37,129 nt of DNA from a virus: the IMG/VR virus record IMGVR_UViG_3300035034_001426, positions 1 through 37,129 of that record. One strand, 5' to 3'. The notes under the pieces are model-generated. The model was not told where the DNA came from, made no database searches, and was given only the letters and a program-made list of their open reading frames with translations. Below are positions 5,285 through 31,655 of the stretch, piece by piece. The stretch's first letter is position 1; each line of letters begins with the position of its first letter. Both the position numbers and the translations under genes were made by a program.

Positions 5285-7384
5285 ATGTCAAACAAAATTC
5301 AAATAAAACGAGGAGCATTAAGTGAGTTACCTGTATTAGATATAGGTGAACCAGCATTCTGTACAGATACTCATGAGTTCTATATTGGTGATGGTATAAC
5401 TAATCATCAAATAGGAGGGATTGTATGGAAAGTAATTTCAACTAATACGACTGCTGCAAATCTGGTTGGTTATCTCATTGATTGTTCTTCCATTCCAATA
5501 ACACTTGCTCTTCCAACATCACCTATAGAAGGGGACACTGTTGGTATTTGTGATTACACATCAAGTGCTTCAATAAATTCAATAACAATTACTTCGACAA
5601 ATAATATTAAAGGTTCTCCAACAAGTTTAATTATAGACGTTGCTGGAGCTGGATTAGTTCTTGTATACTCCGATATTTCTCGAGGTTGGGAAATAGTAAG
5701 TGAAACCTCATCAGGATTATTAAGTTTATTTGGAGACACAACTCCACAGCTTGGTGGAGATCTTGATTTAAATGGAAATAATATAATATTTCCATCAACA
5801 ACAATTTTAGATGTATTAGATGACGATACTATGGCAGCTAACTCTGCCACTAAATTAGCTACACAACAAAGTATCAAATCATACATAATCAACAATGCAT
5901 ATGTTCATTCTACTCATCCGGGTGATGATATAAATGTAGATACAACAGAATTAACTGGTGCAGTTGTAGTATCTGATATTGATATTAATGTGTCAACAGA
6001 TGTATCTGGTCATGTGACTGATGCTAATGGTAGTGTTTCAACTCGAACACTTACTCTTGCAAATCTTGGTTATACAGGAACATCAGATGCAAATACCTAC
6101 GTTCATCCTACTCATCCAGGAGATGATGCATCAGTTGATACTGGGGTATTAACAGGTGCAGTTGTAATATCGGATCTTGATTTTAATATAAGCACAGACA
6201 CAAAAGGTCATGTGACCGACACTAATGCTACAGTTACGACTCGTACATTAACAAAAGCTAATATTGGATTAGGTAATGTACCAAACCTTAACTTCAGTGA
6301 TGCTTCAAACATTACAACAGGTACATTGTCGACTTCTATTCTTCCAGCTCTTGCCATTACTGATGTTTTCGCAGTTATAAATGAAATTGCTCAATTGGCA
6401 TTAACAGCACAGGAAGGTGATGTTGCAATACGATCTGATATTTCTAGTACATACATTCATAATGGTGGTGTTACTGGAACTATGTCTGATTGGTCAGAAC
6501 TTTCTACACCTCTTGATGGTGTAACTAGTGTCAATACATATACAGGACCTGCAGTAACACTTAACCAAGATGATATCGGTTCAGGGTCGACATATGTACA
6601 AACACAAAATGATTTTAACGATACTTTGTTAGGTAAGTTAAATGGTATAGCAACTAATGCTAATAATTATACATTGCCAGTTGGTTCAACATCTATTGGG
6701 GGAGTCAAATCAGGAACAGATATTACTATAGATGTTAGTGGAAATGTCTCAGTTAATGATGACTCACATAATCATATCATATCAAATGTGGATGGTCTTC
6801 AAACAGCTCTTGATTTGAAACTCAATGCTGCTTCAGCATACGTACATCCAACTCACCCTGGTGACGATGCAGCGATAGATACAGGTGCATTAATAACAGC
6901 AACAGTAATATCTGATCTAGATTTGAATATCACAACAGATGCTTCTGGACATGTGACTGATGCTAATGCGACTGTAGCAACTCGGGAACTTACACTTGCA
7001 GATCTTGGTTATACTGGTTCTGCTACTGCTAATAATTATACTCTTCCTGTAGCTTCGACAGTACTAGGTGGAGTAAAATCAGGAACAGATATAACAGTAG
7101 ACATTAGTGGAAATGTTTCTGTGAATAACGATAGTCATACTCATGATGGCAGATATTTTACGGAAACAGAATCGGATTCAAGGTTTTTATTAGTATCAAA
7201 TTTATTAGATGAAGACACTATGTCATCTAATTCAGCAGTTAAACCTGCATCACAACAAAGCATCAAAGCTTTTACAGATTCAAGTGTTTCTACACATTCA
7301 TCTTTATCTACAGGAGTACATGGTGCAGGAACAAATGCATTATTACACACTGGAAGTCTAATTGATGGTGGTGCATTTATTTAA
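5285..7384 (+). CDS. Long tail fibre with Mtd-like N-terminus and 66-residue repeats
   Basis: A 699-residue fibre. The N-terminus (SNKIQIKRGALSELPVLDIG, then FCTDTHEFYIGDG) matches the attachment domain of major-tropism-determinant-type tail proteins. Two ATQQS modules occur (about residues 178-205 and 638-662). Three copies of a roughly 66-residue unit begin with YVH(S/P)THPGDD and contain a V(I/V)SD(I/L)D block, GHVTD and TLANLGYTG. Two copies of NNYTLPV with GGVKSGTDIT and SGNVSV resemble long-fibre shaft motifs. The protein ends in LIDGGAFI. It probably forms a trimeric fibre; no catalytic residues are visible. GAGGT at 5271-5275 precedes the start. Confidence 0.85.
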   Translation: MSNKIQIKRGALSELPVLDIGEPAFCTDTHEFYIGDGITNHQIGGIVWKVISTNTTAANLVGYLIDCSSIPITLALPTSPIEGDTVGICDYTSSASINSITITSTNNIKGSPTSLIIDVAGAGLVLVYSDISRGWEIVSETSSGLLSLFGDTTPQLGGDLDLNGNNIIFPSTTILDVLDDDTMAANSATKLATQQSIKSYIINNAYVHSTHPGDDINVDTTELTGAVVVSDIDINVSTDVSGHVTDANGSVSTRTLTLANLGYTGTSDANTYVHPTHPGDDASVDTGVLTGAVVISDLDFNISTDTKGHVTDTNATVTTRTLTKANIGLGNVPNLNFSDASNITTGTLSTSILPALAITDVFAVINEIAQLALTAQEGDVAIRSDISSTYIHNGGVTGTMSDWSELSTPLDGVTSVNTYTGPAVTLNQDDIGSGSTYVQTQNDFNDTLLGKLNGIATNANNYTLPVGSTSIGGVKSGTDITIDVSGNVSVNDDSHNHIISNVDGLQTALDLKLNAASAYVHPTHPGDDAAIDTGALITATVISDLDLNITTDASGHVTDANATVATRELTLADLGYTGSATANNYTLPVASTVLGGVKSGTDITVDISGNVSVNNDSHTHDGRYFTETESDSRFLLVSNLLDEDTMSSNSAVKPASQQSIKAFTDSSVSTHSSLSTGVHGAGTNALLHTGSLIDGGAFI
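5900..7034 (+). repeat. Three in-gene copies of a 66-residue fibre repeat
   Basis: Units start at 5900, 6098 and 6839. The first two are directly adjacent with a 198-bp period; the third is separated by a different shaft segment. Each encodes THPGDD, a SD(I/L)D block and GHVTD. A fourth, more diverged unit starts near 7984 in the gene at 7837. Such DNA repeats allow unequal recombination between fibre genes. Confidence 0.75.
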
Positions 7385-7836: not shown

Positions 7837-8430
7837 ATGTCGAATAAAATTCAAATTAAACGAGGAGATTTATCGGATATTCCAATATTATCTGTTGGTG
7901 AATTTGGATTTACTACCGATGTTGAACAATTATACATTGGTACTGGGTCTTTAAATCTAAAAATACTCACGTCAGATGATCAATATATCCATCCTACTTA
8001 TACAGCAAGAACAGAATCTGGTGATACAACAGCTCTGACAGGAGCGACGGTAATCTCAGATCTAGATTTTAATGTTTCCTCTGATGCTTTTGGTCATATT
8101 ACTGCTTGTGATATAACAACACTGGCTACACGTGATCTTACACTTGCAAATTTAGGTTATACTGGTGAGACTAATGCTCAGGCAAATGTAGCAACGAATA
8201 TGAGTTGGACTGCTGGTACTACCTCTGGACCTATTTGCAATAGTTCGACAGGGTCAGATTCAGCAATACCAGTTGCATCTGCATCTGCATCGGGTGCTGT
8301 AAATACAACAACTCAGACTTTTGCCGGGGCCAAAACTTTCTCAAGTCCAGTCAACGCCCCATCGTTTGTAACATCAAACTGGACAATAGATCAAAATACA
8401 GATGGGTCTCTTGGATTTTTTTATAATTAA
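7837..8430 (+). CDS. Short tail fibre with Mtd-like N-terminus
   Basis: A 197-residue paralogue of the 5285 fibre. It has the same N-terminal domain (SNKIQIKRGDLSDIPILSVG, FTTDVEQLYIG) and one diverged 66-residue unit (YIHPTYTARTESGD, VISDLDFNVSSD, GHITA, LTLANLGYTG). It ends in a compact tip domain (TFAGAKTFSSPVNAPSFV) of the kind that recurs in phage fibres. The N-terminus suggests it can use the same attachment site as the long fibre and the DGR target protein, so these may be alternative or co-assembled fibres. Confidence 0.75.
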   Translation: MSNKIQIKRGDLSDIPILSVGEFGFTTDVEQLYIGTGSLNLKILTSDDQYIHPTYTARTESGDTTALTGATVISDLDFNVSSDAFGHITACDITTLATRDLTLANLGYTGETNAQANVATNMSWTAGTTSGPICNSSTGSDSAIPVASASASGAVNTTTQTFAGAKTFSSPVNAPSFVTSNWTIDQNTDGSLGFFYN

Positions 8431-13072: not shown

Positions 13073-13114
13073 TGTTTTATTTTTATTTTTTAAATATTAT
13101 TTAGGAGAAATGTG

Positions 13115-14809
13115 ATGGCTGTTACTATTAAATTTAAACGAGGAACAACTCAGACTGTAACTAATTATAAAGATGCTGTATCTGGTGAACCAGTATTTGA
13201 TTACGAAGCTGGTAAATTATTTGTATCCATGGGAGAAGGTGATAATCTTGTTCCTGTTGATGGTGTTCATGTTAATGATATAGGTACAACTGGGGGAATA
13301 GGTTTTGGTGTTGGAATTTGTCCAACTAATCTAATACCTACAAATATGTCCGCAATGGCGGGAACATATGAGTTAATGAATGATAATTATGGCAATTATC
13401 AATATCAAGATGGGTCTATAGTATGTTATGTTCCGATCCATTGGATGAAAGTTGGTACAGGTTCTAATGGTTTTGGTGTAAATGAAATTAGTGTTATGAA
13501 ATATTCAACATATGCTGATGAAACAGCAGCTAATGCGGCTGGATATTTTCTGCCAAGATGTTTTATTGATGGAGGGACTACACATCTGGGATATTTTGTT
13601 GATAAATATCAATCAAGTAAAAACGCTTGGGGCACTGGATACATAGCATCATCGATTAAAAATGGCCTTCCACTGTCCATTGCTTCGACACATAATCCTA
13701 TAGCAGACTTAACAGCCTGTACAGGAAACTATTATTACGAAGCAATTACAGCAGCTCATGCCCGTGACGGAGTTGATGGTGCAGTAAATGGTAGTACAGC
13801 TTGGTTTTGTTGTTCAAGATTTATTTATGTTAATCTTGCAATGCTTGCAACAGCTCATGGCCAAGCAGCTCAAGCAACACCTAATTGTGCATGGTATGAT
13901 GGTACTGGTGTAACTAATTTTCCAAAAGGATGTAATAACAATGCTCTTGGTGATGTAAATGATGGTACGATTTCATATTTAACAGATGGATATCCTAATT
14001 GTGGATTAACAGGATCAGGTACACCCTTTGCCAAAACAACACATAATGGACAAAATTGTGGAGTTGCTGATTTAAATGGTAACATGTTGGAAATTAGTAC
14101 TGGTGTTACTTGTGTTGCTGCAACTAAATCGATTGAAGCTATAACAAGAGCAAATCCAGCTAATGTGACTATAACAGCACATGGATATACTACTGGTAAT
14201 TATGCACAAATAATGGGTGTAGTAGATAATGATTGGAAACTTATCGATGATAAAATATACCAAATTACAGTAATTGATGCTGATAATTTTACAATAGATA
14301 ATCTTAATACTTCTACATTTGATGCTCATTGGGTTCAAGGTACTCATGGAGGTACAGTTACAGTCGGTAATTTCTATGTAGCAGATGAAGCGACAGCAAT
14401 GTCGGATTTCACAAGCGGCAATTCTGGCGCTACGGATCATTGGGGCGCAACTGGTGCAGCAGCTATGATGACTGAGTTTACACCAGTCTTTGATAGTGTT
14501 TATCCAAATAATGGGTTTACCCAACGAATGGGATCTGGAGCAAATCAAGTTCTGTCAGAAGATCTGACAGGGAATGGTGCAGTACTTAGATCTCTTGGTA
14601 TGCCTACTGACTCAGATGGTGTTGATGTGACTGGATCTAATTTGTTTGGTAAAGATTACTATTATCAGTACATTAGAAACGAACTATGTGTGCTATCCGG
14701 TGGGTATTGGCTCAGCACGACGAGTGCCGGTGTTTGGCATGTGTATTGGTACAACAATCGCACGAGCTCGAGCTACTATGTGTCGTTTCGGGCTGCCTCT
14801 CTTTTGTAA
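13115..14809 (+). CDS. DGR target adhesin: Mtd-like N-terminus, C-type-lectin/FGE-like C-terminus with variable region
   Basis: The ATG at 13115 is preferred (AGGAG at 13103-13107, 7-nt spacer); an in-frame GTG at 13112 is too close. The N-terminus (AVTIKFKRGTTQ, GEPVFDYEAGKLFVS) is the same attachment domain as the 5285 and 7837 fibres. Residues about 90-340 have FGE-sulfatase/C-type-lectin features (FIDGGTTHLGYFVDKYQSS, GVADLNGNMLEIS). A 75-residue insertion (about 345-420; ITRANPANVTITAHGYTTGN, ADNFTID) looks like an E1-FCCH-type beta-barrel. The last 38 residues (CVLSGGYWLSTTSAGVW to the end) are the DGR variable region, with SFRAA at the end as is usual for lectin-fold targets. It is the probable tip adhesin whose binding site is rewritten to switch receptors. 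Confidence 0.9.
   Translation: MAVTIKFKRGTTQTVTNYKDAVSGEPVFDYEAGKLFVSMGEGDNLVPVDGVHVNDIGTTGGIGFGVGICPTNLIPTNMSAMAGTYELMNDNYGNYQYQDGSIVCYVPIHWMKVGTGSNGFGVNEISVMKYSTYADETAANAAGYFLPRCFIDGGTTHLGYFVDKYQSSKNAWGTGYIASSIKNGLPLSIASTHNPIADLTACTGNYYYEAITAAHARDGVDGAVNGSTAWFCCSRFIYVNLAMLATAHGQAAQATPNCAWYDGTGVTNFPKGCNNNALGDVNDGTISYLTDGYPNCGLTGSGTPFAKTTHNGQNCGVADLNGNMLEISTGVTCVAATKSIEAITRANPANVTITAHGYTTGNYAQIMGVVDNDWKLIDDKIYQITVIDADNFTIDNLNTSTFDAHWVQGTHGGTVTVGNFYVADEATAMSDFTSGNSGATDHWGATGAAAMMTEFTPVFDSVYPNNGFTQRMGSGANQVLSEDLTGNGAVLRSLGMPTDSDGVDVTGSNLFGKDYYYQYIRNELCVLSGGYWLSTTSAGVWHVYWYNNRTSSSYYVSFRAASLL
14686..14799 (+). repeat. DGR variable repeat (VR)
   Basis: This 114-bp stretch at the 3' end of the target gene matches the template repeat at 15323-15436 without gaps. 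There are 16 mismatches and every one is at a position where the template has A. The changes convert AAY (Asn) codons to Tyr, Ser, Leu and His (for example AAT to TAT, AAC to CTC, AAC to AGC); two others are silent. The GC-rich end TCGTTTCG-GCTG near 14782-14795 is the likely initiation-of-mutagenic-homology site. Confidence 0.95.
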
Positions 14810-14816
14810 CTTTGTT

Positions 14817-14840
14817 TAGGCCACGATAGTGGCCTATTTT
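14817..14840 (+). promoter_or_regulatory. DGR target-recognition hairpin (GATA tetraloop), possibly also terminator
   Basis: TAGGCCAC, GATA, GTGGCCTA (14817-14836) forms a perfect 8-bp stem with a four-base loop, 17 bases after the end of VR and 7 bases after the stop. The loop fits the GRNA consensus of hairpin/cruciform elements required for efficient retrohoming in the Bordetella phage DGR. The T-run 14837-14840 means it may also terminate transcription. Confidence 0.75.
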
Positions 14841-14875
14841 AAACTTAAATATTTGAAAATTTGAAAAGGAAAAAA

Positions 14876-15271
14876 TTGAAGACTTCACCTGAACCGACGT
14901 TAAACCTGAAATTTGTTGAAATGATGAAACTATTAAATATTTATTTGAATCATTTTCCGAATCATGAAAAATATGCGTTATCTAATCTAATTAGACAAAC
15001 GGCATATGAAATATATGATTTGATTACTGAAAGTCAAAAAAGATATTTTAAAAAGACAACTTTGACTAATCTTGATATATGTCATGAAAAACTTAGAATG
15101 CAAATTTATTTATCGTATTCTTTAGGGTATTTTAATTTTAAAGACGGACGTAAATCGATTAACAAAATCGAAGGTCAAAAATATCTTGCAATTTCAAATT
15201 TGATAGATGAATTAGGAAAAATGATTGGTGGGTGGATAAAAAGTGTTAAAGAGCATAAACAGTGGAATTAA
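14876..15271 (+). CDS. avd: DGR accessory variability determinant (Avd-like)
   Basis: A basic, helical protein of about 131 residues between the target gene and the template repeat, the usual place and size of Avd. The TTG at 14876 has AAGGA 5 bases upstream; another TTG at 14861 lacks a site. Features typical of the four-helix-bundle family are FVEMMKLLNIYLNHFPNHEK, the helix YALSNLIRQTAYEIYDLI, then KRYFKKTTLTNLDICHEKLR and a C-terminal YLAISNLIDELGKMIGGWIK. In characterised DGRs Avd forms a pentameric barrel that binds the reverse transcriptase and the template RNA and is needed for mutagenic cDNA synthesis. Confidence 0.85.
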   Translation: MKTSPEPTLNLKFVEMMKLLNIYLNHFPNHEKYALSNLIRQTAYEIYDLITESQKRYFKKTTLTNLDICHEKLRMQIYLSYSLGYFNFKDGRKSINKIEGQKYLAISNLIDELGKMIGGWIKSVKEHKQWN

Positions 15272-15291
15272 ATTTTTTATGTTTTTGACTA

Positions 15292-15297
15292 TATAAT
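15292..15297 (+). promoter_or_regulatory. Possible -10 box upstream of the template repeat
   Basis: TATAAT at 15292-15297 lies 25 bases before the template repeat, within TTGACTATATAATAAG. No good -35 box is seen at the right distance. It could start a separate template RNA transcript; read-through from avd is the alternative. Confidence 0.3.
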
Positions 15298-15322
15298 AAG
15301 TTTTATAGGGAATGCTATTAAC

Positions 15323-15436
15323 ATGTGTGCTATCCGGTGGGAATTGGAACAACACGACGAATGCCGGTGTTTGGAATGTGAATTGGAACAACAATCGCAC
15401 GAACTCGAACAACAATGTATCGTTTCGAGCTGACTA
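15323..15436 (+). repeat. DGR template repeat (TR)
   Basis: The invariant partner of the VR at 14686-14799. Translated in the VR frame it is rich in AAC/AAT codons (NWNNTTNAGVWNVNWNNNRT), the hallmark of templates that yield maximum diversity without making stops by A-mutagenesis. It contains 35 adenines; 16 differ in the VR and none of the 79 other bases do. It lies in the non-coding gap between avd and the RT gene. Confidence 0.95.
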
Positions 15437-15582
15437 CAAGACCTCAAACTCAGATATTGAGATAGTGGAATTATAGGGATAGCGTTTCCTGCAATATGCG
15501 AAATCAACAAAACATACGTTTTTGGTAGGCTAAAAGACCAGTTCGAAGATCAAGTGTGTTTAAATTTTAGGGTGTTAATTAA
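15323..15582 (+). ncRNA. DGR template RNA with 3' spacer
   Basis: From the start of TR to the RT start codon there is no convincing ORF. The 146-nt stretch after TR (15437-15582) corresponds in position and length to the spacer region that in the Bordetella phage DGR folds with Avd and RT and primes cDNA synthesis. Short inverted repeats (for example CTCA...TGAG near 15447-15459) are visible, but a full fold was not computed. RNA ends are unknown. Confidence 0.65.
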
Positions 15583-16605
15583 TTGAAACGGATAGGGAAT
15601 TTATTCGATATAGTGTTTAGTAAAAGAAATCTTTATTATGCATATATCGATTCACGTAAGAGTAAAAGAAAGAAACAAGCATGTTTTAGCTTTGAAATAT
15701 CGCTTGGTAGTAATCTTGAAGAGTTATATGATGAAATTCATAATGGATGTTATCGACCAAGACCATATAAAAAATTTACTGTTTATGAACCTAAAGAACG
15801 TATGATTTATGCACCAGCTTTTCGGGATACTGTAGTGCAACATGCAATTTATCGAGTTATTTATTCAATTTTTGATAAAACATTTATTGATCAATCTTTT
15901 GCATGTAGAAAATGCATGGGTACACATAAATGTAGTAAGAAAACACAAAAATATATGCGAAATTGCAACGACAATGAATATACTTTAAAACTAGACATTA
16001 GAAAATTTTTTTATTCAATAGATAGGGCAATTTTAAGAAAACTAATTGAAAGGAAAATTAAAGATGCTCGATTAGTTGATGTAATGATGATGTTTACAGA
16101 AATGGATACTCCAGTAGGTATCCCAATTGGTAACTTACTGAGTCAGATTTACTCATTAATTTATATGACTCCAATAGACTACTTTGTTAAACGAGTTTTA
16201 AAAGTTAAAAAATATATTCGATATGTTGATGATTTTATCTTGATTGGAATTACACGAGATCAATGTATTGACTATAGATTGAAAATTATTAATTTTATTG
16301 ATAAAGAATTAAATCTGAAATTATCTAAATCAACAATTCAAAAAATTAAGAAAGGATTGAATTTTGTCGGATATCGAACTTGGAAATCAAAAAGATTTAT
16401 TAGAAAATATAGTCTTTTTAAATTTAAGAAAAAAGTTAAACACAATAAGCAATTGTCTGTTATATCGATTTTAGGACATGCAAAGAGCACTAATTCGATA
16501 ATTTATATGTTTAAAATTTTAAAGGATATTAAAAATGATATTAAAATACCAAAAAGTTTTAGTACAGTACGACGAAATGCACTCTTCTACTATCGTTATT
16601 GTTGA
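15583..16605 (+). CDS. DGR reverse transcriptase
   Basis: A 340-residue reverse transcriptase of the DGR clade, with TTG start. Motifs in order: RPRPYKKFTVYEPKERMIYA (about 57-76), HAIY with IDQSFACRKCMGTH (to about 115), catalytic Asp138 in LKLDIRKFFYSID, the DGR-type GIPIGNLLSQIYS (179-191), catalytic YVDD at 214-217, and LNFVGYR (259-265). The SQ in motif 4 and the lack of endonuclease, maturase or protease domains separate it from group II intron and retron enzymes. It copies the TR RNA into adenine-mutagenised cDNA that replaces the VR. The gene lies 146 bp after the TR and its 3' end overlaps the next gene by 71 bp. Confidence 0.95.
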   Translation: MKRIGNLFDIVFSKRNLYYAYIDSRKSKRKKQACFSFEISLGSNLEELYDEIHNGCYRPRPYKKFTVYEPKERMIYAPAFRDTVVQHAIYRVIYSIFDKTFIDQSFACRKCMGTHKCSKKTQKYMRNCNDNEYTLKLDIRKFFYSIDRAILRKLIERKIKDARLVDVMMMFTEMDTPVGIPIGNLLSQIYSLIYMTPIDYFVKRVLKVKKYIRYVDDFILIGITRDQCIDYRLKIINFIDKELNLKLSKSTIQKIKKGLNFVGYRTWKSKRFIRKYSLFKFKKKVKHNKQLSVISILGHAKSTNSIIYMFKILKDIKNDIKIPKSFSTVRRNALFYYRYC

Positions 16606-29062: not shown

Positions 29063-30418
29063 CTATTTAATAAATATTGTTGATGTGTTCATAATTTCAC
29101 TTTCGAATTCTTTCGAAGTAGTGCTAATGAACACAGTTGGTACACTTTTACACCATGTGAATTTTTTGTCTGACAAACAACTGTCAATATCTGAATATCC
29201 GTCTGTAAGACTAAGAATGAGGGATAACTTATCTTTCAATTCATTGTCTCCGTCCCAATATTCTTTCTGAACGAATCTATAACAATCTTCATGTGCTGTT
29301 CCACCACCAACATCAAAACCAATTGTATTGATGAATGTTATAAACTCGATTTTATTACTACTCTCAAATTGGACATTCTGGACGATTCCAGAGTTATGAA
29401 CTAATACATGAGTTTTATCAAAGTTATCCAATGATTGGTTAATGATATAAGCAAATTTCTTTAAATCTTTTTTGCTTATACTTCCTGAAATATCAATCCA
29501 AATAACTAGTATTCCCACATTTTCTTTTTCTTCTTCCATAGAAACTCCAGGAAGTGTTATACCATGTGGAGCATAGTATTTATTAATTGCTCGCCAACTG
29601 CGATCATTGGGTTTTAATATTGTGTTTGTTTTAATTGCTTTTTCAACTAATGTCTCCCATTTGATTTCAACTTTTAATAGGTTACTTAGAAATTCTTTAA
29701 TTGATCTATTAGATGAAGTTCCTCGACCTTTTTGTTCAAGAATATTATTTGTTGCTCGAGCATTATTAATAATTTGCTCGATTTTTTCTTTTAATTTTTG
29801 TTTACCCTCAACTGTTGCTTGATCATCTGTATTTGATATGTCATTAACTTCAAATTCCTGACCAGTATTATCATCTGTAATTGTAGTTGAATTAGCAGTT
29901 TTACCAGATTGTGGAAACTGTTTTGAATGTTTTAATAACCATTGATATGCTTCTTCCTCAACACAATTGGGCATTTCTCTATCGAGTTGAGGGATAATAT
30001 TAAACTGATCTTTATAAAAATGAACAATTTTTAAATCTCGACAACTCCGATCAATAACATGATCACAAGCAAGATTATATAATTCTTTATTTGATTTATT
30101 CTTACCAAGTATCCCATGTCTTCTAAATATGTGAGATAACTCATGTATAATTAATCCAATTAAATCATCTGATGTATAATCTGGTTGACCTACAAATTTT
30201 CGACTAATATGAATATATCCGTCTATAGGTTTAGCATCGTCAAAACTTAATGCAACAAATCCTTCATTATCGTAGTCACCGACAACCCATTCATATTTGT
30301 ATGACATAATTCCAAAAACAGCTAATTCAAAGTCTCGTCTAAAGAATTTAATTTTAGCATGTTTAATAACATTATTTATGTGTTGATTAGCTTTTTCTTC
30401 TTCTGTCACTTTATTCAC
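29063..30418 (-). CDS. DUF2201-like metallopeptidase-fold protein with VWA domain
   Basis: A 451-residue protein. The N-terminal domain (about 1-160) has LIIHELSHIFRRHG, where HELSH is at 92-96 and His101 may be a third metal ligand, as in DUF2201 N-terminal domains. A charged linker (about 165-225) follows. The C-terminal part (about 300-451) is a VWA fold: ILVIWIDISGSISKKDL contains the DxSxS MIDAS metal-binding motif, with GGGTAHED and LSLTDGYSDID later. Such proteins work with MoxR AAA+ ATPases, as does the one encoded just upstream; start and stop overlap by 8 bases, so translation is coupled. Likely a remodelling or chaperone pair for virion assembly or host proteins. Confidence 0.85.
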   Translation of the reverse strand: MNKVTEEEKANQHINNVIKHAKIKFFRRDFELAVFGIMSYKYEWVVGDYDNEGFVALSFDDAKPIDGYIHISRKFVGQPDYTSDDLIGLIIHELSHIFRRHGILGKNKSNKELYNLACDHVIDRSCRDLKIVHFYKDQFNIIPQLDREMPNCVEEEAYQWLLKHSKQFPQSGKTANSTTITDDNTGQEFEVNDISNTDDQATVEGKQKLKEKIEQIINNARATNNILEQKGRGTSSNRSIKEFLSNLLKVEIKWETLVEKAIKTNTILKPNDRSWRAINKYYAPHGITLPGVSMEEEKENVGILVIWIDISGSISKKDLKKFAYIINQSLDNFDKTHVLVHNSGIVQNVQFESSNKIEFITFINTIGFDVGGGTAHEDCYRFVQKEYWDGDNELKDKLSLILSLTDGYSDIDSCLSDKKFTWCKSVPTVFISTTSKEFESEIMNTSTIFIK

Positions 30419-31655
30419 TTTCTCCTGTAATCAACTCAATAAATCTATCCATAATAGTCGGATCTAATTTACCGATTGCATTACATACATTTTCATATAT
30501 ATTTCGTTTGTTATGAGTTTTTTCATAATCAACTAACTCTTGGAACATCATGTAACCAAGATCAGGTACATCACTAATATATTGAAATATTATATTTGTC
30601 AAATCGGGAATAATTTTCTTTGTATCTTTCAGCCCAGTTACATGACTACAAAGTGCAAAACATAGAATGTATTGATCTTGAAGACTGTTTGGCATTTTAA
30701 AATTATCAGACTCAGCAAGGATTTTTTTAATATCAAATTTTGTAAATATGTCGTAATACAGTACAAAATCACTTGTTGCTTCTGGACTAACGTGACCCTG
30801 TGCCATATAATGGATATCTGATGTAGATAGTTTCTTTTCAGCTGTCCATGATTCTTTATGACTAAGAAAATTACTAAGTCTTGTCCATGCTCTTGGACTT
30901 CCCCAAGGATTATCAACAACTTCATCTTCATGAAAATACTTTTGATAATTTTCATTTTTCAAAAAAGACATGATAGAATAATGAACATTATTCTTAATTG
31001 CAAATTTCTCCCGCCATTCTTCATATGTTGTAGTAACGGGCATCATAAAAATTCTGTTAATGATAGCTGAAAACATTGTCTTACTTCCAGCTTTGTTGTG
31101 GCCATGATTTCCTGCCATAACGAGTGCAACACTTGCAGGTAAATCATACTCTCTTAGTTTACGTTCAGTTAGTAACTCATACAATAATGCCATGTGAATT
31201 GATCCACAAAGATGCATATCGTCAAGCAACCAGATAATCATGTCATATTTTTTGACTTCGACTTTTATTGGAACCCCTTCTGAATCTACACGATCACCAT
31301 CAACCAATTCAGATTCGACTTCTTCACTAAGTTCATAAAGTTTTTTCATAATTGCGGGAAATGACCATACTGTTCCTATCTGGTCTTTTCCATTTACTGT
31401 TATTTTAGTAAACTGAGGAATGCCACTGTGTTCTTCATATGGAGTGATAGCAAAGTGAGTTGACACTACAGCAGTCTTGCCCATGTTCTGTGCAAGAGCT
31501 TGCATTGATTGTGTCTTTCCTCCACCAGGTGCTCCAGCAATATATGGAACTTGTACATCGACACCATGGATTTGAAGATAACAAGATTCAACAGCCCACT
31601 GAACAGCTTCATTGATATTCTTATATTGTACTTTTTCGGAAATGATTTCTGACAT
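30411..31655 (-). CDS. MoxR-type AAA+ ATPase
   Basis: A 414-residue AAA+ protein. Walker A is GAPGGGKTQ at 41-49, Walker B is MIIWLLDDMHLCG (about 139-151), sensor 1 is ALVMAGNHGHN (about 176-186), and SAIINRIFMMPV (about 194-205) is in the place of the arginine-finger segment. The DDMH variant of the DExx box keeps the catalytic acid position. On the minus strand it is preceded by AGGAG. It is the first gene of a two-gene operon with the VWA protein, the standard MoxR-VWA pairing. It probably uses ATP to remodel a protein substrate chosen through the VWA partner. Confidence 0.85.
   Translation of the reverse strand: MSEIISEKVQYKNINEAVQWAVESCYLQIHGVDVQVPYIAGAPGGGKTQSMQALAQNMGKTAVVSTHFAITPYEEHSGIPQFTKITVNGKDQIGTVWSFPAIMKKLYELSEEVESELVDGDRVDSEGVPIKVEVKKYDMIIWLLDDMHLCGSIHMALLYELLTERKLREYDLPASVALVMAGNHGHNKAGSKTMFSAIINRIFMMPVTTTYEEWREKFAIKNNVHYSIMSFLKNENYQKYFHEDEVVDNPWGSPRAWTRLSNFLSHKESWTAEKKLSTSDIHYMAQGHVSPEATSDFVLYYDIFTKFDIKKILAESDNFKMPNSLQDQYILCFALCSHVTGLKDTKKIIPDLTNIIFQYISDVPDLGYMMFQELVDYEKTHNKRNIYENVCNAIGKLDPTIMDRFIELITGESE

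Follow-up and report, generated by a model that had tools for sequence, protein, structure and literature searches.

Among described diversity-generating retroelements (DGRs), those closest to the locus reported here belong to Bordetella phage BPP-1 (mtd-avd-TR-brt, TR being the template repeat), a Thermus aquaticus prophage, whose variable protein is TaqVP (5vf4), and Pseudomonas phage Bise (OR683401.1); the tentaclins are phage DGR targets in which a lectin is joined to another beta domain (PMC10743442). We analyzed a 37,129 nt stretch from an uncultivated phage, IMG/VR virus record IMGVR_UViG_3300035034_001426 (hereafter the window), which almost certainly carries a complete, standard phage DGR acting on a tail adhesin, and thus a novel example of a known system. 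Judging from its sequence, we are nearly certain too that this DGR has been active since the split from a close relative, contig L004 (IMGVR_UViG_3300005911_000172), which is 95.8% identical to the window over 4.1 kb.

The window locus shares with BPP-1 the gene order, adenine-specific differences between TR and variable repeat (VR), an accessory variability determinant (Avd), a related reverse transcriptase (RT; 36% identity to brt over 80%, 6e-45), an 8-bp hairpin with a GRNA loop (PMC3240598), a C-terminal VR in a lectin fold and a weakly Mtd_N-like N-terminus. Unlike the BPP-1 protein, the target has a TaqVP-like lectin, is larger and carries a nested FCCH domain; a partner open reading frame (ORF) overlaps the end of the RT gene, and the phage is AT-rich. 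The Thermus prophage element has the same target fold, avd followed by TR, and a VR at the C-terminus whose last strand is invariant (PMC6328139); TaqVP itself, however, is a single-domain monomer that lacks both the FCCH insert and the Mtd_N segment. The RT of Bise is the nearest in the phage collection (58% identity), and that phage also shows A-only TR/VR differences and a GRNA hairpin, but its target is shorter (364 aa) and was missed by the target search of the same collection. In tentaclins, immunoglobulin (Ig) domains follow an N-terminal lectin, whereas the FCCH of the window protein lies inside a C-terminal one.

From the ORF list and profile searches, the elements follow one another along the plus strand in the order target, hairpin, Avd, TR and RT (Table 1). 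This is the canonical order given by the original prediction, and all five elements were found where it had placed them. We read the locus as a complete DGR because of the family and motif of the RT, the family of the Avd, the TaqVP-like fold of the target and the adenine-specific divergence of the two contigs.

Table 1. Features of the DGR locus and its surroundings in the window.
Feature	Position	Strand	Basis or remark
DGR target, tail adhesin (putative)	13115(ATG)-14809, 564 aa; GTG at 13112, 565 aa	+	ORF, AlphaFold, VIA-align
Mtd_N-like N-terminal segment, weak	13127-13228	+	Pfam Mtd_N E 0.013
C-type lectin (formylglycine-generating enzyme (FGE) subtype), first part, ~residues 51-333	13265-14113	+	fold match to TaqVP, Mtd, FGE
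FCCH-like insert in lectin fold, residues 334-418	14114-14368	+	fold match to UBA6 FCCH
C-type lectin, second part with variable region, residues 420-564	14372-14806	+	fold match to TaqVP
VR	14686-14799	+	homing tract effectively stops near 14795
Hairpin TAGGCCAC-GATA-GTGGCCTA	14817-14836	+	8-bp stem, GRNA loop
avd, 136 aa	14861-15271	+	Pfam bAvd, phrog_3206
TR	15323-15436	+	ungapped match to VR
TR-to-RT spacer	15437-15582	+	presumed 3' part of DGR RNA, from position alone
DGR RT, 340 aa	15583-16605	+	motifs IGNLLSQ, YVDD; profile and sequence matches
Partner ORF of adhesin, 155 aa	16535-17002	+	overlaps RT 3' end by 71 bp

TR and VR align over 114 bp without gaps, with 98 identical positions and 16 mismatches. 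As had been claimed, every mismatch falls on a TR adenine (16/35), while none of the 79 other bases is changed; under random placement the chance of this is 3e-10. In the VR, six of these adenines have become T, six G and four C, and no third copy of the repeat was found on either strand of the window. Not all 16 substitutions are equally informative. At position 111 the TR has GAC and the VR GCC, an A-to-C change at codon position 2, and in 64 of 76 pairs the final mismatch between TR and VR is of this kind. From this recurrence, position 111 is read as a fixed difference of the type that separates the initiation of mutagenic homing element (IMH, in the VR) from its TR counterpart (IMH*), and not as mutagenesis; the 3' boundary element of the two repeats thus differs as in other DGRs. 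Position 114 lies beyond it at the 3' boundary. Positions 97 and 106 have A in the window TR only, and may represent drift of the TR, since the TR of L004 and both VRs have G. The 12 remaining changes affect 11 AAY codons, always at the first or second position. The claim that mainly AAY codons are altered therefore holds, and that of 16 adenine substitutions holds as to their location; the clear mutagenesis events would number about 12, with 97, 106, 111 and 114 set aside.

The pair formed by the window and L004 is a natural test that tells mutagenesis from drift in a clean phage DGR. Where both TRs have A, the two VRs differ at 16 of 33 sites; where both have another base they differ at 2 of 79 (Fisher p 1.3e-8). 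The latter two differences, located at 73 and 109, read T in both TR and VR of the window and C in both repeats of L004. Changes outside the adenines thus pass between the repeats even as the adenine sites diverge, which agrees with mutagenic homing, and the VR diversification in these related genomes is adenine-specific with the TR as donor. As TR and VR share the lineage-specific changes at 73 and 109, the sequences indicate that homing acted after the split in at least one of the two lineages. Outside the VR, the target genes of the two contigs differ at 65 of 1578 bases; for avd the count is 5 of 411, and for the RT gene 54 of 1023.

The same pattern extends to relatives of the locus. Genes for the target type were confirmed in 477 IMG/VR stretches, of which 80 were kept, and in 57 genome loci; many of the latter come from Pseudomonadota, Campylobacterota and delta-proteobacterial metagenome-assembled genomes. 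The side findings given below were drawn, by comparing sequences, from about 130 relatives. The 75 unique TR/VR pairs compared show changes at 1216 of 2165 A sites and at 43 of 6579 non-A sites. At non-A sites the VR agrees with its own TR at 99.3% and with the TRs of other loci at 51% on average. The 43 non-A mismatches include 26 in which a TR T has become G in the VR; they occur in 22 loci, often with the T before an A (CTA 8/56). Possibly this signature reflects a secondary error of the RT, and its p value, which assumes independent sites and equal rates, is a guide only.

The RT matches phrog_1423 (7.5e-89), and its IGNLLSQ, of the form GxxxSQ, is unchanged across nine aligned RTs. The best solved-structure match is 8ub7, labelled 'Reverse transcriptase' (1.8e-48, 169 bits, compared with 69 bits for a group II intron RT); we take 8ub7 to be the bRT of BPP-1. 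These results support the DGR-clade assignment made earlier. The product of the preceding gene, previously called Avd-like, matches Pfam bAvd (1e-13) and phrog_3206, Avd of DGR (6e-19), and is an accessory protein of this family.

Published DGR hairpins have a GC-rich stem of 7-10 bp and a GRNA loop (PMC3240598). The hairpin expected between target and avd is present and, folded as single-stranded DNA, has an energy of -8.9 kcal/mol (z -4.8 against shuffles). It agrees with that consensus and is of the standard type.

The target was modelled with AlphaFold from an 84-sequence alignment (pLDDT 89.5, with residues 1-14 and 29-48 mostly below 50). The model, which the original prediction had proposed as a check, matches TaqVP, a solved DGR variable protein: in VIA-align its residues 76-564 superimpose on TaqVP with Z 31.2 over 303 residues, and the C-terminus aligns by hidden Markov model to TaqVP 344-383. 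Further matches are to Mtd variants (Z ~12.5, up to 12.7), TvpA (Z 11.9) and formylglycine-generating enzymes (Z ~10). In the predicted structure the VR is thus at the C-terminus of a lectin fold, as in DGR variable proteins. Residues 334-418 of the model resemble the UBA6 FCCH domain (Z 12.2, with a root-mean-square deviation of 1.7 A across 76 residues) and the tail tube protein of phage T1 (Z 11.1); with the window protein alone, Pfam scores FCCH below its cut-off. In the model this domain is nested inside the lectin fold, because lectin sequence flanks both its sides, and its earlier placement between N-terminus and lectin is incorrect. The FCCH is missing from three relatives (L007, L009 and L010), and its presence changes at least four times over 84 rows of a quick tree built with the FCCH columns excluded; since the query that found the relatives contained the insert, the domain is overrepresented among them. 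Between the window and L004 the FCCH did not evolve significantly faster (6/85 vs 17/439, p 0.24). We regard the architecture as a modest novelty; a search of the available paper library for DGR targets linked with FCCH found none, which is weak evidence of novelty.

An Mtd-like N-terminus was said to be common to the target and two neighbouring fibres. For the fibres, at 5285-7384 and 7837-8430 and both without a VR, this is solid, their Mtd_N matches (1.4e-10 and 2.2e-7) being above the cut-off; that of the target is weak, with 15.8 bits against the curated 26.3.

In the mechanism that we propose, the avd-TR-RT transcript would supply the TR-containing RNA, which RT and Avd would copy with misincorporation at adenines. 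In the adhesin gene, the resulting cDNA would replace the 3'-terminal VR, with the matching 3' boundary (IMH) and the GRNA hairpin downstream of it directing the placement. Every round of homing could randomise AAY codons, which the TR would place on the ligand-binding face of the C-type lectin, and the outcome would probably be an altered choice of the host surface receptor bound by the phage. We infer RNA priming, the role of Avd, cDNA integration, the position at the fibre tip and host receptor binding, and likewise the function of the target as a host adhesin and present-day activity of the DGR.

Several points weigh against a complete and active DGR. The record is classed as a fragment in IMG/VR; the activity of RT and Avd is putative; the evidence for diversification is between contigs and across loci, not within one population; and the ~4% divergence between L004 and the window means that the VR changes are not necessarily very recent. 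The RNA fold of 15272-15600, covering TR and spacer, was no better than shuffles in a single-sequence test (z 0.47). One rival reading is an inactive relic, complete in its parts, whose homing has ceased and whose VR no longer changes. Loss is common in this family, with the cassette absent from 23 of 78 scorable relatives and at least 20 changes of state on the tree, but RT, Avd and target are all open and conserved, avd has its few differences from L004, and the TR/VR changes shared at 73 and 109 place homing after the split in at least one lineage; a relic is very unlikely. That TR and VR are an ordinary duplication, their differences due to host editing or A-directed mutation instead of an RT, we consider extremely improbable. 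Any A-directed mutator could give A-only mismatches, yet here the TR retains its adenines while the VR alone changes, the adenines go to all three other bases, RT, Avd and hairpin adjoin the repeats, and the same layout recurs in 75 other unique pairs.

The target might also be a virion protein of another kind that has a lectin fold, for instance a decoration protein for a non-receptor ligand. Its weakly Mtd-like N-terminus and the indirect assignment of its virion position would permit this, but it stands in a row of tail-fibre genes, two of them with Mtd_N, a conserved partner ORF comes next, much as an assembly protein often does behind a fibre gene, and known DGR variable proteins share its fold. 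We consider this alternative unlikely and prefer a DGR acting on a tail adhesin. The adhesin role claimed for the target is probable, given its tail-operon position and its homology. Promoters predicted around the locus were as many as in shuffled sequence.

The partner ORF is present in 62 of 89 loci with an RT and in 25 of 47 without. In most of the former its start is ~1.6 kb past the target stop, and its overlap with the RT 3' end ranges from some tens of bases to ~130; in most of the latter it starts within ~360 bp of the target stop. Its model has a pLDDT of 96 and no match among solved structures, the best (Z 6.7) being on a helical part. It probably encodes a protein that partners the fibre or serves in its assembly, and does not belong to the DGR core. 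As a component of the DGR it was rejected, since it also stands beside the DGR-less adhesins.

Relatives that lack a full RT and have the partner ORF close behind the adhesin include L057, L087, L097, L103 and L109; some such loci retain C-terminal RT remnants and hairpin scars. A scan of 46 rows, which include two ORF artefacts (L006 and L022), found the hairpin motif retained in 21 and C-terminal pieces of the RT in 7. When whole records were searched, 21 of 24 gave no RT, though they may themselves be fragments. The at least 20 changes in DGR presence on the lectin tree of 78 scorable rows are about as many as shuffled labels give (mean 20.4), so that there is no phylogenetic signal; the tree is quick, with many weak forks, and change counts cannot separate gain from loss. 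Loss is favoured over gain because RT remnants persist, which suggests that the cassette is often lost in this adhesin family. Single DGR remnants were earlier reported in cyanobacteria (PMC7517822).

In the relatives a different form of the hairpin was observed. Just past the target stop, GA-RY-GRNA-RY-GA occurs in 40 of 76 loci with a VR, against 0.016 expected from its rate elsewhere in those loci. In this variant, of which L095, L111 and L112 are examples, the core has two inner pairs and tandem G.A mismatches, sometimes with an outer stem, whereas published stems are continuous over 7-10 bp (PMC3240598). Outer stems of at least four pairs were found at 34% of 50 variant sites and with 3% of shuffled flanks. 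The GAGCGATAGCGA hairpins belong to the relatives, the window having a perfect 8-bp hairpin. A shorter motif, RYGRNARY, lies near the stop in 66 of 73 loci with a VR, compared with ~6 in random windows. All these motif counts come from related loci and hence are not independent.

We give about even chances to a joint reading of cassette loss and hairpin variant. In it the DGR would be a disposable module, with avd-TR-RT repeatedly deleted while lectin and partner ORF persist; the deletion would span from the hairpin to the RT 3' end and freeze a binding variant. In roughly half of the relatives with a VR, a 2-bp GRNA mini-hairpin on tandem G.A would replace the continuous GC stem. The family raises the question of how often phages drop diversification once a good variant has been found, and that of which minimal DNA structure the homing machinery recognises.

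Elsewhere in the window, an HNH endonuclease gene (phrog_1314, 8.9e-38) and an ATPase gene (phrog_1297, 1.8e-41) are adjacent on the minus strand at 29063-31655. As a defence system they had no PADLOC match; in arrangement they resemble a two-gene ATPase-HNH defence pair.

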